From Chloranthus sessilifolius (lineage: Eukaryota; Streptophyta; Magnoliopsida; Chloranthales; Chloranthaceae), in contig CM037590.1 in the NCBI GenBank assembly GCA_021018995.1, positions 44,394,287 through 44,458,286 of the forward strand: a stretch of DNA of 64,000 nucleotides, given 5' to 3'. A model generated the notes under the pieces. That model searched no databases and had not been told where the DNA came from. It saw nothing but the letters and a program-made list of their open reading frames with translations. Numbering within the stretch: the first letter of the stretch is position 1; every line of letters begins with the position of its first letter. Positions 6,639 through 48,800 of the stretch are shown here, piece by piece. Position numbers and translations under genes: made by a program.

Positions 6639-7010
6639 CATGGGTCAAAAAATGGTCCGATACCGATACGTATTGGTTTTGAACTTGGGCGGTACGATAC
6701 AAAGGCATTGTATCATATCCCCTTAAAAATAATGTACTTATTGTCCGATACGGATAATATATCGCCTGTATCGGACGATACATTGAAATTATAGGACGAT
6801 AATTTCAATATATCGTTCGATAATATGTATATATATTTTTTCCGATTGTCTACACAATCGATGGCGACTGTGTAAACAATCGAATTTTTTTTTTTCGATT
6901 GTCTACACAATCGATATCACCGATACATTAAATGTATCGGCCGATACCCGATACGTATCGTCCTAGAGATCAAGACGATACGTGTCGGTTTACCGATATT
7001 TTGATCCTTG
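6639..7010. mobile_element. hAT-type MITE, CGATACGTATCG family
   Basis: It is flanked by a perfect 8-bp duplication, GGTAGTAG (6631-6638 and 7011-7018). The ends are CATGGGTCAAAAAATGG and, inverted, CAAGGATCAAAATATCGG. The interior is almost entirely variants of CCGATACGTATCGG. A stretch at about 6835-6915 switches to blocks of ATTGTCTACACAAT between CGATNNCG cores, with the 22-bp spacing seen in the MULE at 23-47 kb. Confidence 0.85.
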
Positions 7011-21800: not shown

Positions 21801-24800
21801 ACAAAAACGTCAAACAAAAAAAAAAAAAAAGGGCGTCCAAAGCGGATTTGATGAGGAAAAAAATCCACAATTGAGGGAAAAAAAACTGTGGAAATTGGAG
21901 AAAAATTGTGAAGGGATATTAAAAAGGGCGCCATTACTTGCACACACTTTTTAAATGATTGCATCGAGATTAAAGAAATACTTTGCATTTTAGGGACATG
22001 AGACATGTGAAAATGCAATCTAGGCCATCTGATTTAAAGTTCATGATCTATAGATCCTTAGTGGATAAGATTGGAGCAAAACACGATATTTATCATATGA
22101 TCTATTATTGTCAACCGTTGAATCAAATAATAATCTTTGACTATATTTAATTATATGATGAAGATTATATTTCATGTCAATCTTATCCACTAGGGATCTA
22201 TAGATCATGAACTTTAAATCAGACGGCCCAAATTGCGTTTTCATATGTCACATGTCCCTAAAATATAAAGTCTTTTTTTAAACTCGGTGCAATCACTTAA
22301 AAAGCGAGTGCAAATAAAGGATCCCTACTAAAAAAAAATTGAAGCGTAGAATATATTTTATTTAAATTTTTTGATTCAATTATAATTAACTAGACTTAGA
22401 CGTAAAAATTTTAAAAAAAAGTTTGGAGACTTGCAACGATTACTCTGCTAAACTTAGTTAATAACAAAGAGTACATTTCATGTAAAAACTATAATTTTGG
22501 CTTCTAGGGGATTCGAACTGAGTTTGTGTAAGGTATTATACTTTTTACAATCAAGGTATAAAAAATCGCCCAAATCAATACATATTAGTATTCGGCCAAA
22601 TCAATACATATTAGTATCGCCAATACGTATCGGGTTTCGGCCGATACGTCTCAATTCCAACCAAAAATTTTATTTATTTTTTCTTATTATTATTTTAATT
22701 GGCCAATACGTATAGGTATCAACCGATTCATCTTAGCCTTAGACAAATCGATACCCGAGATCAATACCATTTAATACCTTGATTACAATTGAGAGTTAAC
22801 TAATGATCACTTTTGTACATGGTGTATTATTTCGACCCTATGTGGTATCATGAAATGAGGTGATCATATAGGTTGGATTCTTTATATTGAAAAGTTATTT
22901 TCTTCATCTTCACAGCTTGCCAGTGCCATGAAAACCAACGGTCATCATGATTTGTCCAATCTGCTGTAGCTGTTCATTATTATGCTCTTTTAGCCTCATA
23001 ATTACGAATTTGATACATTTTTGGGAAATTTACCTGATCGGCCTTGTCAGATACGCCTTTTATGTCAGAAGCCTTATAGTTTCACCTTTACCCAAACCGA
23101 GCAGCTCCAAGCCTAGCCGACCCTAAGGAGAGTAAATGGTCCAAATTACCCCCTTCTATGACCTTCTTTAACCAGCAAAGTATCATCTTCTTCCTCATTT
23201 TATCCTGCAAAAAAGTTAGAGGTGCAAAACCCTAGACGACTCCTGCCTTAGTCTGATCTGCTCCGATCTGCTATTTCGAAGAAGAAAACAAAGGCTTGGG
23301 AGAAGAAGCCCTGCATTTCTTCATTGTGACAAGAAGACCCTGCAGTTTATCCTTGCGACGCGAGGTAATCCTACTTAAACCCTATTTTCAGTTTATTAGT
23401 GTCTCTTAGTGATGCAGTATCTCCTATTCGCGTAGTATAAGAAAGTCTTTATATCCTTCGATCCGTTTTTTTTTAAATATATATTCATTGCAAATACAAT
23501 CGTCATCGATTCCATATAGAGTCGATATCGATTGTATATAGAGTCGATAACGATAATATATACAATCGATATCGATTGTACGTTATCGACTCTATATACA
23601 GTCGATATCGACTGTATATGTAGTCGTTATCGACTTTATATACAATCGACTAAGATTTATAGTCGTCTTTTCTCTTTTATTTCATCAGTCTTATGACCCA
23701 TTCCTTCTCATTCTTAAACAGACGATGACGGACGTGAGGATTCCTCTTCTTGGTCACTATGATGGCCTTCTTGTAAAAGATGATGGCTTGTATGAAGGTG
23801 GCCGGCGGAGGCTTATTAACATTTCAATTGATATTTTTTACGAACAATTCATAAGGCGAATGTCTGCTGTTAATTTTGCGAAGGCGGATGAAACAGTTTC
23901 CACAAAGTTTCATATGAAGATAGTGAATACGCATGTGGTTGTCGACATTTTGGACTCTGATGATTTGGTCACCTTATTTACGTTTTATAAATCCGCGGTG
24001 GACGTTATAAAAGTATTCATCATTAAGGAACCGTTATCCTCCCCAGTCGAAGCTGAACAAGCAGATCTCGGCAGGACAAATTTTGTGACTCATTCATTTC
24101 AGCCATGTAAGTTTGAGGATGAAATTGTATACGATACCGTCCCATTAGGCGATGGCTATTATATTGCGGAGAACGATGGCAGAGGGAAAACAACTTTTGA
24201 TTTAAACGATGCTCCGATTGAATCGTATGATGACCCAGTAAAATACATGCATGAGTCACAACAATGTAGTCAATGGTTAGACTACACTTCAGAAAGGGTG
24301 GTAGATACCGACGATTTCAGTCATATCATCCCCGGTGGATGGACAATTTGGTTTACTCAATAATTATGTTCTACCATGCCATCGATGGGAATTACCGGAG
24401 AAACTCAACCCCATGTTCATACACATGAGCACCCCTTCGGTGAAGGGCCTAGCCAACCACGCCATTATCCATTTGGTGAAGGATCCGGTCAATCACATCA
24501 GAACCCCTTCGGTGAAGGATCTAGTCAACCACCTGAGAACACCGCTAGTGAATGGCGTAGTCATCCTCAAGCTACTAATGAAGATACCTTAGAAGAAGAA
24601 TATGAAAGCGAACCAGATGGGTTTATCAAAGAGGATCTAAAATTTTTTGTGAGAGACATTGACAATCCCCTAGTAGACGGAGATTACAAAATGTCAGAGA
24701 CATCGGGCGACTCATCCGATGAAGAGGTGGAAACTGAATATCGGAATTGGACGTTTAAAATTGGAGAGATCTTTCGAGACAAACAAATATTTCAAAGAGC

Positions 24801-27800
24801 ATTGAAAGAGCACGCGGTGGAGAAAAACTTTTAAATTCGGCCTTTGAGAACCGCTAGGTTTCGAGTGACAGTTGGATGCTACGAACCTGATTGTTCGTGA
24901 CGAATACATGCTTCTAAATTGACTGGGCTCGATTCTTTCCAAATCAAGACATTCAATAGTACTCATACATGCAGAGCCGGTAAGATCGGACCGCACGGTC
25001 ACCGTAATACAACAATCTCCTTCGTAGCGAACTATGTACGGGATAAACTTATGGAAGGATTCGACTATACACCGGCGTCGATAATATTTGATATTACAAA
25101 AACTTATAATGTGCAAATCTCATATGCAAAGGCTTGGAGGGGAAAAGAACTTGCCTTTAATGATATTAAAGGTAGTTGGAAAGGACAATTTGTTGATCTA
25201 CCGGCCTACGTGAAGGAGATGGAGAGGGTAGATCCTAATGTACAAACATCCTTTCAACTTACTCTTAACGGTAAGTTTCAAATTTTTTTTTAGAGTTTTG
25301 GCCCATGCATCGTGATGTGATTTTTTAATGTATGTTTTACTCGCAAGTGCACGAATCGGTTTGTATATAATGGGTGCGGAGTACGAGATCGTTCCCACGA
25401 GGATTAATGTTGAAATACCTAAAAGAGACAAGTAATTCTAGAAATCTATTAAGATCTAACAGTATTCTACCAATTTTATGATTTAAGTGGTTGGTGAGAT
25501 GGTAATTAATGACTACAAACTAAAATTCAATTGATAATTCGCAAATAAAAGTGAAGATGATGATAAAGATGAAGATACTAAATCCTCCCATCTTTGGTCC
25601 GTTCTTCCTATAATATAAATCTAAGGATTAACTTATGAGATACTCATTAGTAACAAACATCTTTTATGGAAGATCAATGGTCAACACCCTAATAGGTTCC
25701 ATGTTGCATCCCTGCAATTAGGACTTAGATGATTTTCATATATAGATCTGGGATCAGGGGTACGGCTAGACACGCATGATCTCAGGTTCAAATAAAAACC
25801 ATCCCCAAAGTGGGTGAAAATTCCAACAAGAATACCACTTACAAATCTGAAATCAAGGGCATGGCTCGGCACACTTTATTCAGATTAGGGATATTTAAGA
25901 TAAAATTACCATTACAGAACCAAGATCCAGGGCATGGCTCGGCACACTCGATCCCAGAACATAATCATAATTAAATCCACACAACGAAAACACAAAGACC
26001 ATAACAATGATAGGGTAAAATTTATCACACAGATCCGGGATCCCGGGCATGACTCCACAGCGATCCCGGTTAGTGGTATGGGATTTCATCCATTCATGAT
26101 AGCACAATAACCATAAATTAAAAATCTCATATTTTAATCCCTAATTTTATATTATTAAAAGTACATCCCTCGGATGGGAATCATTAGATCCCCATCCCTA
26201 TAAATTTAGCCACACATATTGAAAATAAATGACATAAATAAATAAAGACGGGAAAATAACATTAATTAAAATTACCTCAAACTTCAAAATAAATTACCTT
26301 GATCCACACGTATGATCTTCAGAAAATTAATGCAAAAATAAACTTTGAATAAAATTTAGGAACGAGTACTTGAAAAATCAAAGAACAAAGCTCTCAAAAG
26401 AAATAATAAAACTTCCTATTTCTATGAAAAATAATGGCTAAAAACTAAGAACTCTAAGAACTAAAACTATTCCTACGTAATTCTAATGCTAAACAAAATC
26501 TCTAAAAATTAATCTCCTAATCTACTCTCTACGTTACTCTACTCCTATCTAATTAATTTTTCCCGAAGTGTTTGAGTCTTTAAATAGATTCCGTCGCGCA
26601 AAGGTATCCCACTTCGACTTTTTAGGGTCGATTAATCGACCCAGAGCTGTCGATGCATCGAGCCGACAGAAAATCCTCAAAATCACGTTTCTAGTGTCAG
26701 AATCGTGTCAGACTACTATTCCTGCTCGATTAATCGACCTGTAGGGTCGATGCATCGACCCCAGAAATCCGTGAAAATCAGCAATTCTTGTGGTTCAGAC
26801 ACTGCTTCAGTATTTCGGCCATAACTTTCTGTCCCGAACTCGGATTGAGACGATTCTTGCACCGTTGGAAAGCTGACGAAAAGATCTACAACTTTCATGT
26901 TTTGACAATTTTGTAATTCAGCCGTCTTGAAGGTCCAAATTTAGCCGCAAGTCGCACCAAGTTCTTGATTACCCGAAATTGCAGTGTTTTTGCATTATAT
27001 TCGTGAGTTGCTTTCTATACTTGGCTCATATTTACCTGAAACACTTCAAATCTAATAAATCTTATCAGATAGCCTTCATCGGACAGCTAAATATAGGTAT
27101 TTAGGGGTGAAATATTCTCATTTTTCAGTACTCATCATACCCCCAAACCTACACTTTGCTAGTCCTCGAGCAAAGCAAACTAAAGAAACTAAATAAATGC
27201 CACTTTCGTAGGGAACACGATTGCACTTAGCATGTGCAACAAGCCTTTAAACCCCTAGGTGATCCTAGTGGAGGAGTTATGTCTCCTGAGGGTTTACAGT
27301 GAAGTTACCCACAAACTTCAATACATTTTTGAAATCATCGATAAAATTGAGTTTTCAAAACATGATTTTGATAACATATATACCATTCAAAAACAAAAAT
27401 CATTAATCAATTCAACATGCGAATCCTCAATTTTAAATAACAATGTTATACTAATCATACTCATATCCATTCAAATTAGTCTACTGCTCAAATCGTTAGA
27501 TAGCTCATCCATTCATGCCTAAACGTGAAGTGTGTGCATAACCAAACCAAAATTCATTCATCTCAGATCTAGTTCATAGGGAAAATCGTTGGTTCTGTTG
27601 TTTTGACTCAATCTCCACTTTAGGTATACTCTGAAAATATAAAAACATCGATAGTGGATAAATTTTACATATGTGAGAAGTCAATACAAAGCAAATAAAA
27701 GGTCTCATGATAAATGAAACGATGTAATCAATGAACAAAAATAAATCTCATAAGAAGATACTTGTATATCCTAAGCATGTCATATCAAGTGTCATAAGTA

Positions 27801-30800
27801 TCACATATTTACTCTCCACAAGACAGTTACTAATGCAAGATCAGATCATGAAGGTCTTTTTAGGGTTGTAATGGGGCTCAGGAAAGGGTAAGAAAGAATT
27901 GGAAGTTGGGATTCAAGGTTTCTGAGAAATTGGAAAAGAAACAACTTTTTTTTTCTATTTTTCTTCTTTTTCTTTTCTACTCTCTCACTATTTTTCTCAA
28001 TTTTTTCTCAACTCACTTTTTCTTTTAAATTTCCTTTTCTTGAAGCACCTCAGATTTTTCATTATTTTTCACAATTTTCTTTTTCTTTTTCTCTCTCCTT
28101 TTTCTTTTTATTTTTGCCATACACTCTCAAGAAACACCACAACTCAAGATCTCTCCACTTACTCTCTTTTCGCTCACTCATCCCTCGCTTCCTAATTTCT
28201 CGAAATAAGAAGGGTAAAGCTGAATTTTCAGAAATGGTGAAGGGTTAAAGGTTAACGTGGCTTATCAAAGAATGTATAAAGGTAAATTTTCAATAGGCTC
28301 AAAGGGGTACTAGAAAGATAAATTTATTTGAGGTGGGGCATTTTAAGCACAAACGAGCCAAAGATGGCCTTCAATCATATCCTTAAAAGAAAGTAACTTT
28401 GCCTATTTGTCTTGAGTAGATATACAGTACATTCTAACATAATGATATAAATTTGATTTCATGCAAAGTCACAAGTCAAAATGAAGTGTATGAGATTATG
28501 CAAAATAAATCGTATTCAAAGAAAACTCCGAGTTTATATATTCACTCATCAATGACGGGAAATTAGCTCTAAAGCTCACTGGTTTTAGTCTCCACTAAGA
28601 TCCTAAGATTCAACATTCAAAACAGTTCATCGATTTCTAAGTCTTAGCTTGGTATCAGTGTAAAAAGTCTAAGCATGAATATCAAAATTATCCACAACAT
28701 ATCACATTAAGCTTTATCATCTTAGATACAAGTAATCAAAATATGACACTATTATTCTCAAAATTAAATTCACATGCATCATCAACTAAAGTTTGAAAAC
28801 AATCGTAAAATAATGTGCATGATGACTTCAAAAAAATTTTTTTTTTTTTTTTTTTTTTTTCAAATAACACAAATAAATGACGTAAAATAATTAACCATAC
28901 CCCCAAACCTAAAGATGACAATGTCCTCATTGGTGAAAAAAGTAGCACCCCAAACTTTTGAAAAAGTACCTCAACACAAAGATCAGGTGCAGAGAATAAT
29001 TGTATCAAATTGGAACATTACAAAAAATATATTGAAGGGCATATGGTTACACTATTGAGCGAATTACAAAAAACAACCTAAACTAAACAAAACAAAACAA
29101 AAGGAAAGAAAAACTAATAAAGCCTAAATCCTAAATCCTAAACTAAACAAGAATCCAACTCTGTTAGACATTAGTAGGCGGACCCATCCACCTCGGATCA
29201 CTTAAATTGATATTCTTAGGCACAGGGAACAATTTCTCCCAAAGATCAAGGGGAAATTGATGAGACAACGCCGATGGTATGGATGGAGGTGGGGAGGCGA
29301 AAGTAGGAGATGAAGATGGGGGAGACGGTGACGGCATCACATCAATTATCTCTCGATATCAACATCAAGTAGGAGATTTGGAGCGATTTACCTTTTTACG
29401 AGATGGTTCTCCCCAGGAAGGAATGATCATCGGATCAAGGTCGATGATATCAACATTGTTTGGCACAAAAGGGACCGTCCGATGAGAGCGGCGCTCCCGC
29501 TTTTTAGCAGTCTCCTCCATCTTTGATAATCGGGCTCTGGTAAGATATAATCGTCGGGCCATAAGAAAGAATGTGCAGAGTTAATGAAAAGTGAGCCTAA
29601 AGGTGAATATAAAGGGAAAAATATAGAGTTGGAGTAGGAGTGGAAAGAGGTGTCCTGCAGAAAAGAGACAATGAAAAGGTGTGGCAGTACGTCCAAGGGA
29701 GTCCATATACGTGAGAAAATAGGCAAATTAGAGTTCCAATAGAAGTGCCCGCGAAAAAAAAACAAACAAAAACAGAAAAAGGTGGGGTCGATTAATCGAC
29801 CCTTGAAGGTCGATGCATCGACCCTTTGGTGGTCGATTAATCGACAGTGGGGTCGATGCATCGACACCCAAAATTTTTTATTTTATTTTTATTTTTTATT
29901 TTATTTTTTATTTTTTTAAGCAACAGAGGGTCGATTAATCGATCCCTAAAGGTCGATGCATCGACCCTTTAGGGGTCGATTAATCGACAGAGGGGTCGAT
30001 TAATCGACCTCCTACAAATTTTTTTTTTTTTTTTTTTTTTTTTTCGCAAACAGTGGGTCGATCAATCGAGTATAACCCTCGATTAATCGACACCATCCTG
30101 GCAGAGAGTTGAAAATTTGTGAAAATTAACTTTTTAAAAATGCGTTCCAACTACTCTAAAGGCAACCGATAATTTGCAAAATTTGACAATCCCACACAGA
30201 TTAGAAAAAACACTTTTTCATTGATAAAGACGATGATTACATGGACACTTCTGATTTGACTCCTAAAATAAACAGCCTAAACAAAAGAAAGAAAAATAAC
30301 ACAAAACGAAAAATCCTAATCCTAGACCAAACTAACTAATCATCGCCATCCTCCTCGGCTTGGCGAGCCCTGGCGCGCATCTCATCATAACTATCAGGCC
30401 ACATGCGCTGCCCGATCTGATGGAGGAAGGAACGATCATAGTGGCTACGGCGTAGGAGTGCACCATGGTGTCGCTGCTGCTCTTCTTGTAAAGAGGTAAT
30501 TTGGGCTTGGAGCGAGCCAAGCGACACACCCTCCTCGGGTCCTTGATCAGGTGCATTTTGATCATCTTGACGACCTGGCGGCGGGCGTGGGGGAGCCGGT
30601 GCATCAGCATGGGCATCAGGGACATTTCCCAAGAGACGCATACTGCGGTTCCACTGGGTTGCACCATATCGATAGAAAGCAAGGTCCCCGATATCATCAT
30701 CCCGGTAGAACGGGAAACGAAGAAAATTCAGCAACTTCATAACATAATGGGGGAAGTAGACCAACGGGGCTTCACCAGTGGTAGGTTTAGCGAGTTCGTC

Positions 30801-33800
30801 ATGGCATCGCCACATGCCATCATGAATGATCTTAGGCACGTTGATCCATGAATTGCGGTGGGCCCCATAAAGTGCTTGAACCCGATCACCGGTGCGCTCA
30901 GAAAGCGTGTACGGGACAAAGATTGCTACTGACCACACTATCCCAAAACAAAAGCTGGCGCGGCAACGCCGATCGCCTAGTGGCGATCCCAGAAGAAAAT
31001 ATGCCGCGGCACATCTCGTTGATAATGTCCTCCTGAGACTCGTCAAGTTCCTCACCCAAAATGTGATCGTGAGGGCTGACGAAACATTAAAGACCTCCGC
31101 AATGGTGTGCGAAAATCGGTCGCGACCACCCATCAATTGTAACAGAAGTGGTGGCGACTTGGTTCTCGATGGAGGCGGGCACCCATGCCATATTCTCGAT
31201 AGAATAACCGAACAACGTTCGGACACTTTGATCACGCAGGTGGAGTGAGGAGAAAATAGGCATTGAGCGCCATCGCATAGGCGAGGGAAGCGGCGAATAG
31301 GCGGTGCTTGAAAGCCGCAAGATCAAAACATATTCGAACAGTCGCGGGTCGCGGCGACACTTGGCTGATCACGTGGATGATCGTAGGCGTTGTACAAGTC
31401 TTTGGCGGCGGTCGGTAAGCCATGATTGCACCGCTTTCGAATGTCGAGGCGTCGGAAAAACAAATACAATCAAACTCGTAGTGAGAAAGGGTGAGACTCC
31501 TCCATTTAAATAGGCGCAAAGCGCCTCGGGACGGACACAATCAAAATAATCGATTAACCGACCAAAAGTGTCGATTATTGGACTTGAATGAAAAGAGGCG
31601 CGTCAGAAGTCCCGACGCATGGAAACAGGCAACGTCTTTAAGTGAAAAGACGCACGTCGGAAGTGGAAAAGTCGATTAATCGACGCACTTATTCGATTAA
31701 TCGATAAAAATCGAGGCAAATAAAAAAATAAAAACGCACGTCCCAAAATAAAAGTCGATTAATCGATCCATAAAGAGTCGATTAATCGACACCAAATAAA
31801 AAACAAAACTGACGGATATTTAAGACGGCTCAATTTTCAAAAAGTGTAGTCGATGCATCGACTCAAGGAGTCGATTAATCGACTAAAAAAAAGTCAAAAA
31901 TCGCCATAAATGCACTGTCCTTGAAAAGGACACTGAATTTAAGACTCCCGATTAATCGACCAAAAGAGTCGATTAATCGAGCATAATTGGGTCGATGCAT
32001 CGACCCCTAATGGTCGATGCATCGATCCAAAAATATTTTTTTTTTTTTTTTTTTTTTTTTTAACGAAACAACACACAATCAAACGGAAAAATACACAATT
32101 GGGTTGCCTCCCAATAAGCGCTAGTTTAAAGTCGATAGCTCGACCTTGGGAATCACTCAGTCAGGGTGAGCCAGTGGCTCACTCAAAGAAATAGTGTCAG
32201 AGAACGCAACCGCATTCTCAAGGAACGGTTTCAATCGGCTAACTGTTAAAAAACATTCCGTGTTTGGGTTGATAATATCTCTTGCCCATTGGGAGTATTC
32301 GAGAGATTTTAAAGGACCACTCCACGGGTTTTTAGTTTCCAAATAGATGAAGTCGAATTGTAGAGTAAAACTAGTTGACCAACAACGAACGATTTTCGCA
32401 GAATATTTTGATCATGAACCCGTTTCATCCGGTCCTTATACGATTTAGCACAGTCATATGCATCAGCACGGCTTTCCTCTAATTCATTTATTTGGAGACC
32501 CCTTTGGGTAAAGTATTCCGTGAAATCGAAATTCAATGACTTAACGGCCCAAAATGCTCGATGCTCTATTTCAACCGGAGGTGACATCCTTTACCAAAGA
32601 CCAACCGATACTGGCGACATGCCAATCGGAGTTTTAAATCTTATTCTATCGCCCATAGGCGTCATTCAATTTTAACGACCGTCTTCACGGTTCGGATTGA
32701 TTGTCTTTTCTAAAATTTGCTTAAGTTCCCGATTAGAGACTTCAACTTGGCCACTTGTCTGAGGATGGTAGGGTGTAGCAACTTTGTGTGTGACACCATA
32801 TTTCTTCATTAATTGGGTGAACACTTTGTTGCAAAAGTGCTTTCCACCATCACTGATTATCGCTTTTGGAATGCCAAAACGTGAAAACACTTGATCCTTG
32901 AGAAATCTGATCACTACTCTGTGATCATTAGATTTACATGCCACGGCCTCTACCCATTTCGAAACATAGTCAACGCCGACAAGAATGAACGTATTTCCAA
33001 ACGAATTCGGGAAAGGACCCATAAAATCGATCCCCCAAACATCAAATAACTCAACTTCTAAAATTGGATTGAGCGGCATCATGTTGCGCTTTGAGATTCG
33101 GCCTAGCATTTGACAGTTGTGACAGGACTTGCAATGTTGATGGCAATCCTTAAATATCGTCGGCCAGTAAAAACCACTTTGAAAGATCTTAGCTGCAGTC
33201 TTTTTGGAACTAAAATGACCTCCACAAAGTTAACTCATGTGACGAGATGATTCGTGGTTGCTCAGATTCAGAATGCATCGTCAGTATGATTTGATCAGAC
33301 GATATTTGAATAAATCGGATCCTCGAAAAATAGTGTTTCACCCGAGCTAAGAAAATAGATTTCTCATTCCTCGACCAATGGTGAGGTAATTTCTGACTAG
33401 GAAATTGACAAGATCCGCATACCAAGGTGGGCAATCAATGAACAACTGTTCATCGGAAGTGCTCCAAGATTGGAAAGAGCGTTTTCTCAATAATAATTCG
33501 TGACAAATGATCGGCCACCACATTTTCTGAACCCTTCTTGTCCTTGATCTCCAAATCAAACTCTTGTAACAACAAGATCCACCTTATTAAACGTGCCTTA
33601 GCCTCTTTCTTAGCGAACGATATCGCAGAGCTGATCTCGTGAATACCACAACTTTAGATCCTAATAAATAGGATCGAAATTTATCCAACGCGAACTACAT
33701 ACCAGTTCCTTTTCAGTGGTCGAGTAGTTCAACTGGGCATCGTTTAGAGTGCGACTCGCATAGTAGATCACATGCGGTAATTTTTCTATTCGTTGCCCCA

Positions 33801-36800
33801 AAACAGCTCCAATTGCATAATCGGAGGCGTCGCACATAATTTCGAACGGGAATTCCCAGTTCGGAGATTGAATTATCGGAGCCTTTATCAATTCGCCTTA
33901 ATAGCTTCAAAGGCCTGCAAACATTTATCATCAAAGATGAATGGAACATCTTTGGAAAGTAAGCTGCAGAGCGGCCGTGCTATCTTACTGAAATCTTTAA
34001 TAAAACGCCTGTAAAAACCGGCGTGGCCCAGAAAAGATCTGATTTCCTTCACTGTCCTCGGTGGTGGTAGGTCGGCAATTAAATCAACTTTAGCTTTATC
34101 GACCTTGATACCCTGGGACGATATGATGTGTCCCAAAACAATGCCATCTTTAACCATGAAATGACATTTTTCCCAGTTAAGAACAAGGTTCTTCTCCTGG
34201 CATCGTGCAAGCACTAGCGACAAATGATTCAAACAGTCAGCAAAACTGTTTCCATGTATTGAGAAGTCGTCCATGAAGACTTCCAAGAATCGCTCGACCA
34301 TATCCGAAAAAATACTCAGCATACATCTTTGGAATGTAGTGCATTACAAAGCCCAAACGGCATTCGGTGGGAGAAAGTACCAAAAGGACATGTGAAAGTG
34401 GTCTTCTCCCGATCCTCCCACAATGACTATTTGGTTATACCGGAATAATAGCCATCGAGAAAGCAATAGTACTCATGCCCGGCCAATCTTTCTAACATCT
34501 GATCGATAAACGGAAGTGGAAAGTGATCTTTCCTCGTCATCAAATTTAACTTCCGATAATCGATGCACACTCTCCACCCTGTTTGAATTTTTGTAGGGAC
34601 CAGTATGTTTTCTTCATTCTTTACCACTGTGATTCCCGATTTCTTAGGGACCACTTGTGTAGTGACCCATTCTTTATCGTCCGAGATGGGGTATATGATT
34701 CCATCTAAAGTTTGATTACCTCATTTGGACCACATCTTGCATGATAGGGTTGATCTCCTCTGTGGTTCCCTAGAAGGCTTAGCATTGTCTTCCAAATGGA
34801 TTCGGTGCATACACACCGTTGGACTAATGCCTTTGATATCTTTTATCGACCAACCGATGGCACTTTTGTGCTCTTTGAGTACATTCATGAGTCGGCCTTG
34901 CTGATTCGCATCCAGTGTTGATGATATGATAACAGGTTGAGTTTCATTCTCCCCGTGTAGACATACTTGAGATTCTCCGGAAGAGGTTTAAGTTCTAAGG
35001 ACACTTTCTCCTCCTCTTTCGGCTTTTCCTTGATTAATTCAATTTGAGTTCCACACTCTATTTCCTGTTCTTCACCCAGACGTGGTGTGAAATCCAACAT
35101 GTGATTTACTTCTTGGATTAGGTGATCCACATCGAAATTTTCTCCAAAATGCGCAAGACAAGTCAGGAGGATCGCCGATTCGGATGCATTAAATATTTCC
35201 TCTACAATTTCATCGAGTATGCATGCTTGTGCATGTTCGTCATCCTCCATGGGCTGCTTGGCAATATTAAAAATGTTGAGTTCAACTGTCATATTCCCGA
35301 ATGACAGATTCATGATCCCATTTCGACAATTGATCAGCGCATTGGAGGTTGCTAGGAATGGTCTTCCTAGAATCACTGGAATATTATTCTTCAAATTTGA
35401 TGCTGGTTCAGTGTCTAGAACAACAAAATCTGAAAGTAGAAAGAATCCACCTTGATGAGGACATCTTCTACAATTCCTCGAGGGATCTTCTGGACCGATC
35501 ATTCAAGGGTCATTGCAGTGGTCTTAAGTTCTCCCAATTCGAGCTCCTTATACACAGAATAAGGCAACAAGTTAACACTTGCTCCTAAGTCCAAAAGAGC
35601 CTGATCAATACGGTTATCGCCGATAATGATCGAGATTGTAGGACAACCTGGGTCCTTGTATTTGATCGGGAGCTTTGCTTGATCTTGAACTAACCATTTC
35701 GGCTAAGAAAGCCTTTTGAATATTGGTCTTTCTTTTGATTGTGACCAATTCCTTCAAAATTTAGCATAAGCGGTACTTACTTGCGGATGGCATCCGAGAA
35801 AAGGAATATTAATTTTAATTGCTTGAAAATCTCATTTATTCCTTCCACATCACGATTTCTCAGTGGTGCCATCAATCTTTGCGGGTATGGTGCTTTCGGA
35901 ACAAGACTCTTATTTTGTTCACTCTTGTTATCTGATATTTCTTTTGCTTGTACTTTGTCATCAATTTCTTCTCTCTCTTCAGATTTCTTCTCTCCATCAG
36001 ACTCTTCCTCCTCCTCTGGCAACACTACTTTGTTATCGACCTGCTTTCCAGATCTCAACGTTGTGATCGCCCGAATTTGTTGTTGATTATCCTCTTGTGT
36101 TGAAGTTGATGTTTGTTCAACAACCATTTGGCCCCTTGGGTTAGGAACAGGTTGGCTTGGAAACGAACCTTTTTCTCTTTCACAGAGAAAGGATGCCAAT
36201 TGCCCAATTTGGGTCTCTATTTTAGAGATTGAGGACGTGTGAGAATGGATGAGTTTCATCTGGTCCTCAGTAGAAGGAGTTTGTGTATGAGGACGTTGGG
36301 CAGGATTTCCCTCTGGGTTGTTAAATCCAGGTGGTGGAAATGACGGCACAATATTTTGATGTGGTTGGTATTGATAACCTCCCATTGGTCGGTAAACCGA
36401 AAATTCTCGGTTCATTTGCCGTGGGTCAAACCCGATTTTGATTGTATTGAAATTGATTCGGGTTATTGAACCCTTCTTCTTTGAAATTGCCCTTGACCGT
36501 AGTTCTGTGCGGTCCTTGATTGAAATTTTGTTGGGGATAAAAGTTCATCCCGCTTCGGCTGCATTCTTTGATTATCTTGTTTCCATGAGAAATTTGGGTG
36601 GTTTCTCCAGCTATTTGGGTTATTCTCATTGAAAACGTTTCCTTGATTCCGCCCATAATTATTCACCACATTTAATTGTTCAGATGTGTCTTCATGATAG
36701 TTCTGCATTGAAGGACATTCATCTGCCATATGCATTGGACTTGCACAAATTGAACACGGGTCAGGTTGTGTATTGACCATATGCACATTCTTCTTTACTT

Positions 36801-39800
36801 TCAATTCCTCCACTTGTTGAGTGAGGAAATCAATTTTAACAATCGGATCTGGGAATCCTTTACTACGTACAGTCCTCCTTTCTTTGTTGAACTCCCGGCT
36901 TGATCCCGGGTTTTGACTGCTTGTTCTCGAGTCTTTGTGAAATCCCAGTGCTGAGAGTCCTCAGCTAGCTTTTCTAAGAAAGCATAAGATTCGGTTTCTT
37001 TAAGGCTCAGGAATCCTCCGCCATTCATTGACTCCACCAGATGTCTATTTGGTTGATTTAATCCATTGTAGAAACACTGGACTAGTCTCCACTTTGAGTA
37101 TCCATGGTGTGGACATTTGAGTAAGAGATCCATGAATCTATCCCAAGCTTCATATAATCTCTCATCTTCCTCTTGCGTGAAATCCGTGATTTCACGTCTA
37201 AAACGATTCGTCTTCGCCATAGGGAAGAACTTTGATAGAAACTTTTGACCATCGATCCCGGTGGTTATGGATCCCTGATGGTAGAGAATTTAACCATGCT
37301 TTGCTTTATCCTTTATAGAGAAAGGAAATAAAGCGCGCAAAACGATTCTTATTTGAAATTTTGGTAAACAGATGAGCAGACTTCAACGAAGTCTTTAACA
37401 TGCTGGTATGGATCTTCTCGATCCATGCCGTGAAAGATTGGAAGGATTTGGATGACATTTGTCCGAATTTCAAACCGGCCACCAGGTGTGGCGGGTACAC
37501 AATGCATGATGGGGTGTTTGTAGTTATTGGAAAACAATTCTCTCAATGTTGGTTCTTCCTCTTGTTGAGTTGCCCATTCATGTTGTCGATCATATTGACT
37601 TGGGATGATTCACTTAAAACTTTACGCCTTGATCTAGCGTCCTTACGATTTGGACCGAGCGCACGTTCGATCTCGAAATTTAACGTTCTAAATTTCTCTC
37701 TTTAGAAGACCTAGTGTGCATACAAAGGATGCAGCGAGGTTTTCGTGAGCAACCTCAAAACAAAATAAAATTTTTCAAAATTTTTTTTTTTTTTTTAAAT
37801 CGATTAATCGAGTATAACTCGATCAATCGAGGACAACTCGATGCATCGACAAATTCGATGCATCGACCTCAATTTTTTTTTTTTTTTTTTTTTTAATTTT
37901 AATCCTCGAAAATTCCTAAAATTTATCTGTCACCAAAAATTGATTTTCTAAATTTAATCCCAAGAACGAAAAACTTGATGTGATTTTTAATGTATGTTTT
38001 ACTCGCAAGTGACGAATCGGTTTGTATATAATGGGTGCAGTGCGAGATCGTTCCCACGAGGATTAATGTTGAAATACCTAAAAGAGACAAGTAATTCTAG
38101 AAATCTATTATTAAGATCTAACATTCTACCAATTTTATGATTTAAGTGGTTGGTGAGATGGTAATTAATGACTACAAACTAAAATTCAATTGATAATTCA
38201 TAAAAGTGAAGATGATGATAAAGATGAAGATACTAAATCCTCCCATCTTTGGTCCGTTCTTCCTATAATATAAATCTAAGGATTAACTTATGAGATACTC
38301 ATTAGTAACAAACATCTTTTATGGAAGATCAATGGTCAACACCCTAATAGGTTCCATGTTGCATCCACGCAATCGGGACTTAGATGATTTTCATATATAG
38401 ATGCAGGATCGAAGTGCGGCTGACACGCATGATCTCGGGTTCAAATAAAACCATCCCCAAAGTGGGTGAAAATTCAACAAGAATACCCACTTACAAATCT
38501 GAAATCAAGGGCATGGCTCGGCACACTTTATTTGATTAGGGATATTTAAGATAAAATTACCATTCTGGAACCAAGATCCGAGGGCATGGCTCGGCTCGAT
38601 CCCAGAACATAATCATAATTAAATCCACACGAAAACACAAAAGACCATAACAATGATAGGGTAAAATTACGTCACGGATCTGAGATCCGGGCATGACTCG
38701 AACACGCGATCCCGGTTAGTGGCGGGGATTTCATCCATTCATGGTAGCACAATAACCATAAATTACCAATCTCATATTTTAATGCCTAATTTTATATTAT
38801 TAAAAGTACATCCCTCGGATGGAAATCATTAGACCCCCAACCCTATAAATTTAGCCACGCATATTGAACACACATGACATAAATAAATAAAGGCGGGAAA
38901 ATAACATTAATTAAAATTACCTCAAACTTCAAAATAAATTACCTTGATCCACACGTATGATCTTCTAAAATTAATGCAAAATAAACTTTGAATAAAATTT
39001 AGGAATAGTACTTGAAAATCAAAGAACAAAGCTCTCAAAAAATAATAAAACTTCCTATTTCTATGAAAAATAATGGCTAAAAACTAAGAACTCTAAGAAC
39101 TAAAACTCTATTAATTCTAATGCTAAACAAAATCTCTAAAATTAATCTCTAATCTACTCTCTCGTTACTCTACTCTATCTAATTAATTTTTCCGAAGTGT
39201 TTGAGTCTTTAAATAGATTAAAATCGCAAAGGTATCCCACGACTTTTAGGGTCGATTAATCGACCAATGGTCGATGCATCGAGCGAAAATCCTCAAAATC
39301 ACGTTTCTAGTGTCAGAATCGTGTCAGACTACTATTCCTGCTCGATTAATCGACCTGTAGGGTCGATGCATCGACCCCAGAAATCCGTGAAAATCAGCAA
39401 TTCTTGTGGTTCAGACACTGCTTCAGTATTTCGGCCATAACTTTCTGTCCCGAACTCGGATTGAGACGATTCTTGCACCGTTGGAAAGCTGACGAAAAGA
39501 TCTACAACTTTCATGTTTTGACAATTTTGTAATTCAGCCGTCTTGAAGGTCCAAATTTAGCCGCAAGTCGCACCAAGTTCTTGATTACCCGAAATTGCAG
39601 TGTTTTTGCATTATATTCAGAGTTCTTGCACTGTTTTCTATACTTGGCTCATATTTACCTGAAACACTTCAAATCTAATAAATCTTATCAGATAGCCTTC
39701 ATCGGACAGCTAAATATAGGTATTTAGGGGTGAAATATTCTCATTTTTCAGTACTCATCACATCGGAAGCTACCGCAATACACTTCGTCACATATTGCTT

Positions 39801-42800
39801 GTAGACGGCACACACCTACGAGGACATTTCGAAGGGATCCTACTTATCGCCTCTGTGCAAGACGGTAATGGTCATATATTACAGTTAGCATTTGCCGTGG
39901 TCGAGTTAGAAGAAGAGGATACGTGGATGTGGTTTCTTGAACAGGTAGGTGCGTTCATGATCGGTGGGTTTAACAAAGATTTCGTATTTATCACGGACAT
40001 GTCAAAGGGTTTAATAAATGCGGTGAAACGTATCTTTCCTAACGCATATCATAACTACTGCATGCGGCATATGACACAAAATTTATAGCACAAGTATCCC
40101 AGGAACAATGTGAAGGGTCTATGGTGATGTGATGCGTCGCGCGTGCATATTCGAAAGATAAATTTGATTATTTTATTAACAAAATGAAGAAAGATCCTGC
40201 TGATTCTCAGGCCGTATAATATATTTTGAAAATAGATCCGAAGCATTGGGCACGCGCACATATGGAAGGAAGGCAGTACGATTCTCTGACTACAAATATT
40301 GCCGAAAGTTTAAACAGCGTACTAAAGATAGCTCGAGAGAGACCAATTATCGACTTAATCAGAACTACTAGAGAGAAAGTCGCCGATCATTTTTAAAAAC
40401 GTAGAGAGATATTTGAGAAATGGACCACTCTCCTCTACCCGAAAGCAGACGCGCACATGAAGAAGGTGTTGCAATGGGCCGGTAGAAAGAGCTCAACCAT
40501 ACGGGCGCGATCAATTCCAAGTCAATTTCAGAAATTTCATTCATCACGTCGACTTGGAACGCAAGACTTGTAGTTGCCGCCGTTAGCACATTCATGGCTT
40601 GCCTTGCTCCCATGCCGTGGCGGCCATCAATCGAAGAAGTTACGACTACCATAACTTTTGTGATAAATGATTTTTCACCGCTTGCTTTAGACAAGCATAC
40701 GACGAGCAATGGGTTCCAACCCTCGATAAAAGTCAATGGGAGTTCCAAGCAGAGCAACTCCCTGAAAATATGAAAGTGAGACCACCCTATTATTGCCGAA
40801 AACAAGCCGGCCGTCCAAGGAAGAGAATGATAAGGTCTAGCAAGGAATATGGTCACATGATCGCAGAACTCGCGGGCGGTGGGACCAATGGATTGACAGT
40901 GTATATTTTTAATAATGATAGATTGAATGTGAACGAGAAATTCAGAATCCATTTTTTTTTTACTGTAATATAGTCTTTACCGATTAATCATAGAGTCGTC
41001 ATTGACTATATACATAATCGATATCGATTCTATACAGAGTCGCCATTGACTATTTATAAAGTCGATATCGATTCATTTAAGAATCGATATCGATCACTTA
41101 TGCAGTCGATGACAACTCTATATAAAGTCGATAGCGACTCTATATAGAGTCGTTATCGATTATGTATATAGTCGATGACGACTCTATATATAGTCGATAG
41201 TGATTACATATAAAGTCATTATCTATATTTAGTCGATAATGGCTGCGATTTCTACTTTTTAATCACAGCTACATAAAAATAGTGCAATTATATTCAAAAT
41301 TTTTCATTAACAAAAAATATTTCATTTACATTTATAAAAATATTAAAATACAACCACACTACTGCTGCGCCCCCTCCTTTTTGTCGTCCTTCACCAGTAC
41401 TCATCCGCCATCGCCTGTGTATGTAGCCAATATATGGTCAATTTCTGTCCTAATCCTATCTATATCTGATTGCGCGAAGTCAAATTTTTTCCCCATCATG
41501 AAGTACTCGACATACTTCACAACAAACACTCCACAATCACACGAGTTGGTCTGTTGGGGGAGGGCTTTGATCCGACAGTCACTAGATGACCAAGGATAGT
41601 TCTTCGAGATCAGTGCAGTGGAGTCACCGTACGAATATAAAATCACTGGAAGGTATTGGGTCTGTTTCGAAATAATAGAGAGGAGTGTCATATATGTTAA
41701 GCTAACACTGATAAAAGATATGCTAAGCAAAATATCTTACCAGCGCCTGCAATTGGGACACATATCTTTCTTTGGAGGGCTTATTAAATATAGGGTCGAC
41801 GATCATTATCGATCGTTCGACTACCTTCACGATCGCAAGCTCCCAGTGTAGTGGTTGTTCTTAATGTATTGGCATAAATATCTATAAAAAAGCAATATAA
41901 TCTCAAAGGGTATGATGGAAAAATTAAAAAGAGGATAAAAGCATACTACACTGCATTTGTGAGCCCACAGATTTCGAAACTCATTGAAGAAGAAAGTTTC
42001 CATTAGCTTCTTCCCTTCGGTCTCTTCTTATCTATAGGCAGCCCACCGTTGAACTTGAACCTCGAACGATTGTTCGTATAATTTTTCAGCAAGCAGGAAT
42101 TTGTTGAAATTCCTCAGTTCATAGCTCATGAACGTCAGCGCGGTAGGGTCCATAAGGAAGTTTTTAAACTTTTTATCAGGATGAATTTTATCATTAATTA
42201 CTTCCAAATGTCTCAGGTAGGCGCCCATAACCTGAAACCAATGCAGTTAGATTAAAATATGTAGTTAGAGTTAAATATATAATCGTTATCGACTCTATAA
42301 GTCATCGATGCCGATGACTTAAGTCAGCGTTACCGACTCTCCAATGAATCGATATCGATGAGTTACAGAGTCGATAACGATTACATAAGCCATCGTTATC
42401 GACTCTAAAAGCCATCGATATCGATTAATATGAGAGTCGATAACGATGATGTAAGTCATCATCATCGACTCTATAATAAATCGATATCGACTCTATTTCG
42501 AGTCATCGACAGCTTTAACTATTCTTGTTTTTGCCTACAGTATGTTAAACTTACGCCCGGACATCTGAAGGATTGCACCACCAGCTTATACTTGCCGACA
42601 GTGCTTACATATTCGCTGCATAAATAATGGCCAACGTAACTAATCTTCACGATAAATATATAATAATAAAGTTAATGAATCAGGGAAGAATAACTTACTC
42701 GTCCTCCTTCAAAGGCTTGTTCAATACGTCTAGCATATATTTTTGGTCCGCTGTCAGCTCAGGTGGAAGCTCAGCAGGAGCATCTTCAGCCGCAGACTCA

Positions 42801-45800
42801 GGACCAGCGGTAATGAGTGCCACTGGTCCAGGCTTAGCGGTTGGTCCTTCACTGGCCTTCTCGGTAGGCTTCTTTACAACCGCTACCCTTCGTTGTGCCT
42901 TAGGTCTAACGGTAGTTACTTTGCTGAGTTTCCCTTGCCTAGGTCTTAAGCGAGACTCAGCTTGTTGGTGAGGAAATTGGGAAGAGGTTTCCTCTTCACC
43001 AGCAGGATCCTTATCAGTTTGAGTCTCAGGCTGCTCGTCAACAGCTGCCATCACCTCATCAATGAGAGGAGGAAGAGAAACCTGATGCACAGGAGCTGAT
43101 GGTTCCTTATCGACGACTGTGTTGCACACCTTCGATATCAGCTCCTCAATAGCCACATCCTGTTCATCGAAATAATGAAGCAAAATAAGAATTAATTTTT
43201 GGTCCCTATTTTTAAAAATCCAAATCGATTATATATATAATCGTTATCGACTGTATATATAGTCGATATCGATTTTATATATGATCGTTATCGACTCTAT
43301 TAATAATCGTTATCGATTGTATATAGAGTCGATATCGATTGTAAATATAATCGATATCGACTCTATATATAATCGATAACGATTGTATATATTATCGGTA
43401 TCGACTCTATATACAGTCGATAACAATTGTGTATATAATCGTTATCGTCTCTATATACAGTCGATATCAATTTATGTTAACAAAACTGAACATATAAAAC
43501 CATATTTCAACACATACCTTAGGTCTCGCCTCCAATAAATTTTTAAGGAGTTCTTTTATATTCGACTGGCCCTTTCTGACCACAGAGTTGTAGTGATTTA
43601 ACTTCTGCAACTCCGCATCCCTTAAATTTAGCCGCTCTTTGAACGAGTTGCATAGTTTCTCTATAGAAGCGCAACGTTTAACCAGGGCCTTATTCTCTCC
43701 TTCCAAATCGCTCACTCTTTGGGTGAGCTTCAAGTTCTCCAGCGTCAAATGGTCGACCCTCCTCAACAAAGAATCATTAGTGGTGGACTGTTCAGCTGGG
43801 CTATCTTTCGCTGTCAGGCTCTCATTGGTGGCCCTCCTAGTTCTTGGCTGACCCTCTCCCACATGAACGGGGCCCTTTTTCGAGGGGGGTTCTTCTTCTG
43901 ACGTCGATGCGTCATCTCATTCTTCCTCTTCAATATTCTCGACCGGAATGTAATTTCTTTTCTTCTTCGGCCACATCTCTTTCACAGCTTTCTTGACCGG
44001 TTCTTTCCTCTTCCCCCTAACCTCCTTTTGAACCCGTAGAAATTCTCTTAACACGGGTATCTCTAACTCAAAGTCCTGAGGCACGAGGGGAGCGCGAATC
44101 TTTTGAAAGAAAAGAAAACATGGTAAATAACAGAATAAAATGATCGTATATATAATAAATCATTCTCGATTATGTAAAGAATCGGTACCGACTATTTAAT
44201 AAATCGTTATCGATTCGGTACTGAATCGCTATTGATTATTTAATGAATCGTTATCGACTACTTAGTAAGTCATTATCGATTCCGAAATGAATCGCTATCG
44301 ACTTACTAAGAAGTCAATACCGATTCTGTACTGAGTCGCTATCGACTTCTTAAAAAGTCATTATCGATTCTGTAATGAATCGTTATCGATTCTAGAATGA
44401 ATCGGTAAGTTACTTTTTGAATTGGCAATAGACCTCATACCTTGCTGTCTAACATCTGTCCACGAGTGTAACCTTTGATCCTTGACTGCGCCCTGTCCGA
44501 CCATTTCAACAGTCGTGGGGAAGGGTCCTCCAGGCCTAGTTGGGATTGCGATATATCGGGCAGGATCTCATAAGCCTGCCATTGAAGTATACATATGCAT
44601 CCATATGTGTTGTACGTCTTCAGGGCTTTATCCATCTTGGCAGTCTTTCTATTCGCCGCGCCCTTCATTATATACTCGATCAAGTCTTGGTAGACGTGTA
44701 GACCCCACAGAGTTCGGTTAAATTTTTCCACATCATCGATGAGGTCGATGTGGTCTTCCGAAAGCTGATGGTGTGACCCGGGGAAGAGAAATATGCACAG
44801 CACAAATAGAAGGGACAACTTTACGAAGTCCTCATCACTTTCCGCTCTCCAAATTGCAGCATCTATATGAGATCGGAGAATTTTTCTAGGAGGCGTTCTA
44901 CGAAAGTATTTGTATCGAATGGTTTAGTTTTCCGATGGTTTAACGGATGGGGTATACTTTTCTGGGCCAACTACAGCAAGACCTAGTATCAATGCAATGT
45001 CTATCTTCTGAAGATAGACATCAATCTTCCCAATTCGGAAGTAGTTTTTTTCAACCCAAAATGTCAACATCGCATCCACCACATCGGAAAGAAATCCCAC
45101 ACCCTTAGGCATTTGAAATATTTCACCAAAAATTGAATCTCTCAGCAACTTCTTCCGCTGTAGTATATTCAGAGATATTCAAATGGCATGCTAACACTTG
45201 TAACAGCATGTACAACCATCTTGACAACCTTTTGAAATGAACTGTAATAAAAAAGAAATGATTGAACCCCATACTAACAAGGATAGTTTAAATGTTGAAT
45301 GAAATGTAATATATAAAACCGATATCGAGTCTAGATGTAATCGATATCGATTACATATGAAATTACCATCTGTAATCGATGGTGATTTCATATGTAATCG
45401 ATATCGACCCTATATGTAATCGATACCGACTGTAGATGTAATCGATATCGAGTCTATATATAATCGATAGTGACTCTATATGTAATCGATATTGAGTCTA
45501 GATGTAATCGATATTGATTACATATGAAATCGCCATCGACTATTTATACAGTCGGTATCGACTCAATATAAAGTCGTAATGATCTCAAAATGTTTATTTA
45601 CATTGAAAATATTTAATTTACTGATTCAAAAGATTTCATGAAGTCGCCATTGAATCAAAATGTTTTATTTACTTTCAAAATTTCAATTACATTCATAATA
45701 TTTCATTTACAATTAAAAATGAAAATAAAATCCTGCAGGTGGATGGATGAAGAGCAATCTTCCGCTTCTAACCAAAATTTAGGAAGATGGATGAAGAGCA

Positions 45801-48800
45801 GGTGGTGGATGGGATGGAGAGGCGGGTGGTTCCGTCTTTTTCTTTCTTTTTCTTTTCTTCCTTCGCCAAAAGTTCCATTACTTCATCGTATTCGTCCCAC
45901 AGGAACTACAGAGGATCTGGTTCTGGTGGTGGTGGTGGGTCCCCCCATACAGGCTCGAACTTGATTGGGTTATAGTAGGTTTTTTCTTCGTCGTCTGACA
46001 TTGGGAAAAATATGAGCTGGTAGGGATGATAGGTTTGCTAAGGACGAACTAAACCTGTATTTAAAGCCCCTAGATGGTGGAATACGAATCGTTGTATTAA
46101 ATTTTCTCATTCTTCCAAGCTTACTTGCTATAATGGTTTTACAAAAGGGTAGTTGGCAATAAATTGAACGTCGGCTGAGATAAATATAAAGCCTTATATG
46201 ATTTATTATGGGTTATGACATCGAGGGTAATAATTATAGGGAAGTTAATTCATATGATGGGTATTAATTATATTCATAGAGAGTCGATATTGATTTTTTA
46301 TAAAGTCGTCATCGACTATTTATATAGTCGATTACGACTACATATATAATCGTTATCGACTCTACATGTAATCGATAGCGACTCAATATGTAATTGGTAA
46401 CGATTACATATAAGATCGATATCGATTAAATATGGGAAAACCTTAAAAAATTATGTCAAAATGTGCACCAAAGAGAGGAGAAAAAAAAAATCTAAAGCAA
46501 TGGAAGGTAATTTTAATTCCAACTTACAGATTTGGTAGCTTGAAGATTGTAGATCTGAACGCTAGCGTCCACGAAGAGACAACGACTCTCCACCAACTTC
46601 GAATGAGAAAGTAAAAAGTAAAAAAGGTAAACAGTAAATGATTTGAAAAAAGGACGGCTATTTATTACATTGGGGGTAGTTTGGGCATTCCCTAAAGGCG
46701 TGCGTCGGCTCGGCGCGCAGCAGGTATGTTTGGGTAAAAGTGAAACTACAGGGCTTCTGACGTAAAAGACGTATCTGACAGGGCCGGTCAGGTAAATTTC
46801 CCTACATTTTTTGTTTACAATCCCATTCCCAAGTTGTACCTAATCTATGTGATGACTCTGTGAATCATGTGGCATCATATGTCTAAGCCTAGTTATCGAA
46901 AAAAGTAACATGTGGCATCATATGGGGCAAAATCACAGTTACAAATACAAAATTATTGACCTATTTACAATAAGTAATGCTTGTGTTATACAACCGGAAA
47001 ATTCTGAGAAGAAAATGGAAAAAGTACCTGGCTATATATTTAAAAGAGTTATAGTTAGTATATGATATGAGCACCATTAATGGTAGTGCTCACGTCAATC
47101 TCCCTTCACTAAATTTTACTCTTAAATTTTAAATATTCTTCTTAAATTTTTTGTGTTCAATATAATTTATCTAATTTTAATCATTTTTAATATTTTTAAA
47201 ATAAATTACGGTTAATTGCTCCAGCTTGCCCAGACGCAAGATGTCTTGGGATCACACCATGGTAGGTTACACTTGAAGATTTGTTGGTAACAAATAAAAT
47301 AAGTCCCACCTTTACATTATCTTTGTACCAGAACTGGTGATAGTCGTTGGTCACTTTTACAAACATTCCAATCTATGCCAATCATTTTGCAATTATTATT
47401 CGGCACTAATAGCAGCAGTTTTTTGTTAAAAAAATTGTCGCTAATAGTCTTATTTTTTGTAGTTTAATTATACATTATCTTTCGTCCAAGATATCAAATA
47501 TCTGATACCAATACGTATCAATTTTTCAGCAAATTGATATGTATCGGCGCCAATTTTTGTATTTTTAGGTTTTTTTTATTATTATTTTTGAAATAGGCCG
47601 CTACATATCAGTATCAGTCGATTCATATCGGTCCTCTAATGACCGAAACCGATTTTGTTACCTTGCTTTCGTCCCAATCTTCTACGAAATATATTTCATC
47701 ATGGGTTTTCGGCAAGTCTAACTAGTTGAACTCTAAATGGGGTTCTAATTGTAACGAATCCAAATATCGATGTCAATTTCGAAAGTTGAAAGTCAAGATT
47801 CGCTTGCATCCAATGGTTCCAAAATTAATTGAACCTCATTTAGAGTTCAACTAATTTGATGTGATCAAAACCGACCTTAAGATCATGGGCAAATCATTTA
47901 ATGATAAGATGTTTCATGTGACAAACAACCTAAAAAGTGATTTGAGAATCTCGTATGATGTTATGCACATGATCATGATCACTTTGTTGGATGTGTGCCG
48001 AGTAGAATCAATATTTGAATAATTATTGGTACGCACATAATCTCAAAATATATTTTGTAGAAGATTCAGACAAAAATTGATCTCCTTCGTCACCGTTACT
48101 ATTGTCTTTGCCCGTAAAAAGGTTGCATGGCAATGCAAAATTCTTTAGTGGTAAAACAGGTACCTTTTATTATCTTAAAATCTGTTGTCACATGTAATAA
48201 AATTTAAGATAATAAATTTTATTATCTTAAATATGAGAAATAGCGCTTGATAACCCTTTAAAGCACTTTTTTTTTTTTTATGAGAACCATTTTAAAGCAC
48301 CCCTTTTTTTTAGATGTTTTTAAAATATTTAAAAAGTGTTTTTTGGAAAAGGATTGTCAAGCAGGGCCTTTGACATTCCCAACCTTTTGGCATAAATTTT
48401 CTATCCTAAAATTTGAGACCATTTACCACCAAGCACTAATGACCAAAATTTCAGCTGAAAATTTGGTCAGATTTTTGTATGGGAGTCAAATCATCAGACG
48501 AAATTTCGATTCAAATTTTCAGTTTCGGTCCCTTTCAAAACCGAAATGAAACCCGAAATTTTGATCATTGCTTAGTACCACTGTTACAGATGCAAGTTTT
48601 AAATCAAAAAGTGAAACAGCCTGAAAAAAGTGGTCCGTCGATTGGACTGAAACCAATCCAAAAATGAAAAAATCGAAATTGATGCTCAATTGGTTCTGTT
48701 TCGGTTTTGGGTGGCTGAAACTGAACCTGTTTAATATATTTAAAATATCAATCTAAAATGGAAAAAAAAAAAAAAAAAAAAAAAAGAAAGAAAAAAGTCG

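Follow-up and report, generated by a model that had tools for sequence, protein, structure and literature searches.

The locus considered here raises the question of what function, if any, is served by seven tracts of short palindromes repeated at a 22-bp period within one transposon. The tracts, hereafter arrays T1–T7, lie in a stretch of 64,000 nucleotides from Chloranthus sessilifolius (GenBank assembly GCA_021018995.1, contig CM037590.1, positions 44,394,287 to 44,458,286 of the forward strand), which is referred to as the window and whose numbering is used throughout. They belong to a Mutator-like element (MULE; element A, 23023..46802) that contains a transposase gene and, convergent with it, a gene for a protein with DUF1985 and C48 (Ulp1-like) domains. 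We propose, with a probability of about 0.7, that the element's own DUF1985-C48 protein, which would be a sequence-specific anti-silencing factor similar to VANC, has its cis target sites in the arrays. The proposal is based on a correspondence with VANC systems in the kind of gene, the kind of element and the kinds of places that the arrays occupy. The arrays were described in a first-pass annotation of the window; the link to VANC is absent from it and is added by the present analysis.

The periodicity reported in that annotation was confirmed by autocorrelation. Every tract has its top lag at 22, 44 or 66 bp, with values of 0.64–0.80, and the value at lag 22 itself is 0.55–0.72, as compared with maxima of 0.39–0.45 in shuffled tracts (300 base shuffles per tract). 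A secondary signal at 11 bp (0.36–0.49) is present in all seven. The unit consensus, obtained from a symmetric matrix trained on the seven tracts, is the 14-bp palindrome ARTCGnTAnCGAYT. The matrix has 73 matches in the tracts, and 60 of the 66 intervals between neighbouring matches are exactly 22 bp. The exceptions are three intervals of 11 bp, caused by scoring linker palindromes, and single intervals of 14 bp (T1), 35 bp (T6) and 39 bp (the end of T2). Beyond the tracts, 26 matches were found in the 64 kb, compared with 20–27 in five Markov simulations.

To describe conservation within the unit, 71 units were aligned without symmetrisation. This set was derived from the 73 matches by removing three (the T2 linker palindrome, the last T2 match after a phase break, and the T3 linker palindrome) and adding one in-phase T2 unit that scores under the threshold. 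The frequency of the commonest base is 0.86–0.99 at the core C and G positions, 0.89–0.90 at the central T and A, 0.55–0.70 at the two adjacent free positions, 0.52–0.59 at the R and Y positions and 0.41–0.92 in the linker. Deviation on both sides of the palindrome's free pair occurs in 4 units, versus 9.5 expected, as if one good half-site must be retained.

The arrays are distributed over the noncoding DNA of the element. All seven noncoding segments longer than 300 bp that were examined hold an array with 7 to 13 matches; this count left out the terminal inverted repeats (TIRs) and a transposase intron containing a long terminal repeat (LTR) retrotransposon. T1 (23498..23657) is located in the intron of the transposase 5'-untranslated region (5'-UTR), and T2 (40972..41244), between the convergent genes. 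T3 (42281..42503, its final match being a linker palindrome), T4 (43217..43472) and T5 (44158..44391) lie in introns of 323, 358 and 341 bp, respectively. T6 (45317..45563) is upstream of the DUF1985 exon, probably in an intron, and T7 (46282..46427) in a putative 5'-UTR intron with a donor-like site at 46527. According to the first-pass annotation, the arrays fill the transposase 5'-UTR intron and, exactly, the three long introns of the second gene. An array is indeed present in each of these introns, but T1 occupies only 160 of 357 bp, and T3, T5 and T4 occupy 223, 234 and 256 bp of 323, 341 and 358 bp. With the arrays subtracted, the latter three introns measure 100–107 bp, which is near the length of the array-free introns. 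Those were correctly listed as array-free, with no match in any of the three; their lengths are 65, 83 and 79 bp by our splice reading instead of 68, 83 and 79 bp. The coding DNA of element A contains one palindrome site in 5,548 bp. The motifs are thus dense and tandemly repeated in noncoding DNA and rare in coding DNA, as in VANC-type systems. The observed to expected ratio of CpG is 3.0 in the arrays versus 0.87 in the other noncoding DNA of element A.

The nested LTR retrotransposon (25313..39760; LTRs at 25313–27137 and 37976–39760, 93.5% identical) was taken as a neutral yardstick for the ratio of gaps to substitutions. In a MAFFT alignment its LTR pair differs by 30 gap events, 12 of which exceed 1 bp, and by 88 substitutions. 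In the arrays, at least 177 base changes, this being the minimum within tracts, stand against three phase breaks, counted by eye from the matrix matches, at which the spacing falls short by 8, 9 and 5 bp. The deficit of phase breaks is significant (Fisher p = 1e-10, or 4e-4 when the LTR gaps are limited to the 12 that exceed 1 bp), with two caveats: in-phase copies may be favoured simply by growth through exchange of whole units, and assembly errors could account for short LTR gaps. The earlier suggestion that spacing is more constrained than sequence is thereby upheld. Measured against the tract consensus there are 324 deviations, 157 at core positions (14 per unit) and 167 at linker positions (8 per unit).

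The linkers are specific to individual tracts, as had also been suggested: their identity is 0.56 within tracts versus 0.47 between tracts, and none of 1000 permutations gave a difference as large. The inner ten core positions have no such excess (0.789 within versus 0.782 between, p = 0.11), and a small one appears when all 14 core positions are considered (0.755 versus 0.738, p = 0.001). Tract-specific linkers combined with an inner core lacking any tract excess indicate local turnover of the arrays, with an inner core that is constant throughout the element. The identity of linkers within tracts points to local tandem duplication of the repeats, as in VANC-type systems, and block structure is seen at periods 44 and 66.

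The DUF1985-C48 gene (41404..46030, minus strand; putative first exon 45770–46030) is disrupted by stops and frame changes. Its C48/Ulp1 domain is recognized at 2.3e-21, above the Pfam cut-off, and its middle part has a weak match to a bZIP zipper (0.0028, below the cut-off). A search of about 5.8 billion proteins, in which 7,998 candidates were scored, yielded three matches, all from plants (two from Cucumis melo and one from Ficus carica) and all combining DUF1985 with C48; the C48 domain thus accompanies a VANC-type protein both in the window gene and in the homologues. A profile of nine homologues, built without the window protein, was run against 657 six-frame pieces and found the unmended open reading frame 44923–44438 (minus strand) at 6e-12 and the C48 reading frame 41736–41404 at 1.5e-8. 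The DUF1985/PMD-like exon (44441..45215, minus strand), identified with the homologue profile and hhalign, scores 95.8% and 7.3e-9 in hhalign against the homologue family. When PDB was searched, VANC21 (9lnj, 9lnk) was found at 2.3e-7 by the Ficus homologue alone, at 4.2e-17 by the homologue profile including the window protein and at 9e-15 by the profile without it. Homology of the DUF1985 protein to VANC is thus seen through the homologue profiles. Two annotated proteins (P0079 and P0069, among 120 listed of 142 family matches) join DUF1985 to MULE-transposase or SWIM domains, which fits with DUF1985 genes residing in MULEs. The Ficus carica annotation is very rich in DUF1985-C48 proteins (P0002–P0122), which account for most of the 120 listed matches. 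The predicted fold of the window exon was poor (mean predicted local distance difference test score, pLDDT, 53.2) and was not used.

Element A was classed as a MULE on the basis of its transposase domain, TIRs and 9-bp target site duplication (TSD). The TIRs (23023..23121, plus strand, and 46704..46802, minus strand) are 90.7% identical over 75 bp in one alignment and 84.8% identical over 99 bp in the other, and both flanks carry a perfect TSD, TACATTTTT. Without the nested retrotransposon the element is 9,332 bp long. The transposase gene (23725..40943, plus strand) has coding pieces at 23725–25270 and 39766–40943; the retrotransposon insertion point between them reads as an intron. The gene is disrupted by stops and one frame change, and encodes the domains PF10551 (MULE, 2.7e-20), PF03108 (MuDR DNA-binding, 2.1e-9) and SWIM (6.2e-9). 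Its homologues are MULE/SWIM proteins of about 29–33% identity, none of which is named VANDAL among the 120 listed of 528. The named protein relatives of the transposon genes in the window come from flowering plants. Within the transposase reading frame a 36-bp tandem repeat of about 3.3 copies (24422–24552) encodes a repeated peptide. The nested retrotransposon has palindromes of its own, GGTCGATTAATCGACC and relatives, in tandem copies of 20–23 bp at 29786–30008 and 39249–39376. Those at 29786–30008 resemble the MULE half-site by eye; they lack a 22-bp peak and were set aside.

The anti-silencing protein VANC21 of the Arabidopsis MULE VANDAL21 binds YAGTATTAY at dense, often tandemly repeated sites in the introns of VANC21 and VANB21 and upstream of VANA21, and binding drops sharply on single-base changes (PMC5735166). 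VANC6 recognises different motifs, and its action extends to AT9TSD1, an unrelated transposable element that has the VANC6 motif (PMC5735166). VANC targets overlap the targets of RNA-directed DNA methylation (PMC10398659), and a meeting report mentions unpublished structural work on VANC with target DNA (PMC12859917). Element A resembles the VANC21 and VANC6 systems in being a MULE that has a gene for a DUF1985 protein, in having dense tandem short motifs in introns and intergenic DNA, and in local turnover of the arrays; the action of VANC6 on an unrelated element bearing its motif may also have a parallel here. The differences concern the motif and the gene content. VANC21 sites are non-palindromic, lie in one orientation and have no CpG, whereas the unit of element A is a palindrome with two CpGs and a 22-bp period; the sections of PMC5735166 that were consulted state no regular period for VANC21 sites. 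Moreover, VANDAL21 has three genes (VANA, VANB and VANC), compared with two seen in element A. The name KIU is used for VANC genes bearing Ulp1, whose action is said to be directed at their own kind (PMC13317346). They too occur in MULEs and join C48/Ulp1 to a DUF1985-type protein, but the KIU MULEs or VANDALs are called non-TIR (PMC13317346), whereas the TIRs of element A are about 75–100 bp long. This contrast may be one of degree, as PMC10398659 speaks of VANDAL21 TIRs. Among the papers listed by literature searches, which were confined to open-licence papers, none dealt with such 22-bp arrays.

The seven arrays of the first-pass annotation were placed inside one MULE. All seven do lie within 23023..46802; chains of units at the same period occur elsewhere in the window as well. 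The chain search used the matrix trained on the element A arrays. The best chains outside those arrays start at 59659 (three units, score 33.6) and at 56085–56129 (up to six units, score 30.5), compared with maxima of 4.9 for three units and −34.8 for six units in 40 simulated windows. When periods from 18 to 26 were compared, only 22 scored above zero. One of these chains (56063..56230; 3 of 9 in-phase positions score at least 6) lies in element B, a short foldback element at 55726..56721 (approximate ends; inverted repeat of 78% over 183 and 80% over 108), whose left end matches the MULE TIR (74.7% over 87 bp, 1.8e-12). No TSD was established for it. Element C (59578..59999, approximate left end) consists of an arm that it shares with element B, at 71.9% over 217 bp, and five sites, in runs of two units (59578–59613) and three units (59659–59716) located 59 bp apart; positions 59989–59999 carry 11 bp of the MULE TIR, which at E 1.4 is not significant alone. 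A tblastn search with the element A proteins found no MULE genes in elements B and C. The occurrence of 22-bp chains in these gene-less elements means that arrays of this kind are independent of introns. The check on whether related copies keep the 22-bp phase, as suggested in the first-pass annotation and made on these short relatives within the window, gave 22-bp chains in both, with the two runs of element C mutually out of phase. A direct repeat of 61 bp (78.7%; 59398–59458 and 60003–60063), longer than a MULE TSD, brackets element C.

A third, short chain of three units (6834..6891) scores 10.4, above the same simulation maximum of 4.9, with only site 6856 scoring at least 6 alone. It sits in a different repeat and is not claimed for the MULE family. 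That repeat (6639–6960) and another at 20111–20416 are related and palindrome-rich (72.9% over 225 columns); the former has extra sequence with the chain, which the latter seems to lack. Other repeats in the window include a 90-bp tandem repeat of four copies at 62498–62861 (87% matches) and long self-complementary foldback stretches at 4771–5271 (75.7%) and 4012–4310 (72.1%).

If the arrays are targets of the DUF1985-C48 protein, it would bind the 14-bp dyad, probably as a dimer given the symmetry of the site. Units about two helical turns apart would present neighbours on nearly the same face of DNA, so that binding could be cooperative. Dense binding may then lead to removal of silencing marks from the element. 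The arrays would grow through local duplication of 22-, 44- and 66-bp blocks, and a gene-less element with a retained chain might be served by the factor in trans. Among the roles suggested in the first-pass annotation, phased binding of protein at about two helical turns fits best, given the dyad motif, the constrained phase, the arrays in seven of seven long noncoding segments examined, the arrays in gene-less elements and the presence in element A of a gene whose DUF1985 product is related to the DNA-binding protein VANC21.

Several observations weigh against an anti-silencing role of this kind. The PMD and DUF1985 matches of the second gene (5.1e-7 and 6.9e-4) are both below the Pfam cut-offs, and the window exon alone gave no match to VANC21 in the PDB search, so homology to VANC is not seen directly from it. 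The array motif is palindromic and has no orientation, unlike VANC21 sites; a one-orientation array is, however, a VANC21 trait that is not known to define VANC-type systems. The element B chain is weak in most units, and the element C runs do not share a phase. The core CpGs do not support sparing through past hypomethylation: 119 of 142 are intact in the arrays and 19 of the 23 changed ones are TG or CA, while the LTR pair shares 43 of 56, with TG or CA in 7 of 13 changes, so that CpG loss in the arrays is no lower than in the LTR pair. Finally, hairpin signals in array RNAs persist.

These signals bear on an RNA function, also raised in the earlier annotation as intron hairpins, whereby transcribed arrays fold into long hairpins and feed small RNAs, for host silencing or self-regulation, or shape splicing. 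The in silico folding is strong: the three array-bearing introns fold at z-scores of −12.0, −8.0 and −11.7, and none of 100 shuffles of each was as good, although folding is built into any palindromic array. Permuting the order of the units gave a fold as good as the native one in 0 of 150 cases for T2 and 4 of 150 for T4, and over eight pieces the combined p is 0.0095, the other six pieces giving 18 to 113 of 150 and no clear effect; block duplication could also produce such an effect. Column shuffles folded as well as the native sequence in 0 of 150 cases for T2 and T3, 1 for T4, 2 for T1b, 4 for T6b, 19 for T5, 32 for T7 and 63 for T1a. Half-swaps did so in 1 (T2), 2 (T4), 3 (T3) and 4 (T1b) of 150, and in 46 (T7), 47 (T5), 72 (T6b) and 115 (T1a). 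The palindrome arms, on the other hand, pair less than shuffled ones (354 of 497 cells versus a null of 367, standard deviation 5.7), and in the 71 aligned units they show no covariation; upkeep of hairpins through compensatory change is thus unsupported. Moreover, T2 is intergenic, and no gene was found in elements B and C. An RNA function is regarded as unlikely.

Other DNA transposons carry subterminal repeats that bind the transposase, and the arrays of element A similarly provide many short sites, with two of the arrays (T1 and T7) lying 475 and 375 bp from the element ends. Instead of clustering at both ends, however, the arrays span the whole element: five of the seven are separated from the nearer end by 1.2–4.3 kb and occupy introns or the space between the genes, which makes transposase binding quite improbable. 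The distribution is also difficult to reconcile with minisatellites that arose once and then spread neutrally through the element, since arrays are kept out of coding DNA and occur in all seven long noncoding segments examined. Neutral growth accounts for the linkers homogenised within tracts, together with the block structure at 44 and 66 bp, but not for core bases more conserved than the linker and the central free bases, nor for the phase deficit relative to the LTR yardstick; we consider it a poor candidate with a very low probability. The 11-bp autocorrelation would suit a structural role of the DNA, such as positioning of nucleosomes by TA-rich linkers and CG cores that alternate about one turn apart. 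The strongly conserved TCG and CGA bases are not required for such a role, which seems the most far-fetched of these explanations.

Binding of the arrays by the DUF1985-C48 protein thus remains the preferred explanation. For VANC-like targets the arrays are unusual in being palindromic, CpG-bearing and rigidly phased. It is conceivable, albeit doubtful, that they represent a second anti-silencing architecture, in which a dimeric DUF1985-Ulp1 factor assembles cooperatively on rigidly phased palindromes and, through their two CpGs, is sensitive to the methylation that it counteracts, which would make it a self-sustaining epigenetic switch, in a MULE with TIRs and with gene-less relatives borrowing the factor in trans. 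Should the arrays be the targets of the protein, sequence-specific anti-silencing would extend to a MULE with clear TIRs, and a target code could be a phased palindrome. The target of a DUF1985 protein could then be read from the phased arrays in its own element. Two further questions would become open to test: whether an anti-silencing protein, like a transposase, is parasitised by short gene-less elements, and in what way a transposon factor spreads along DNA once bound at dense sites.

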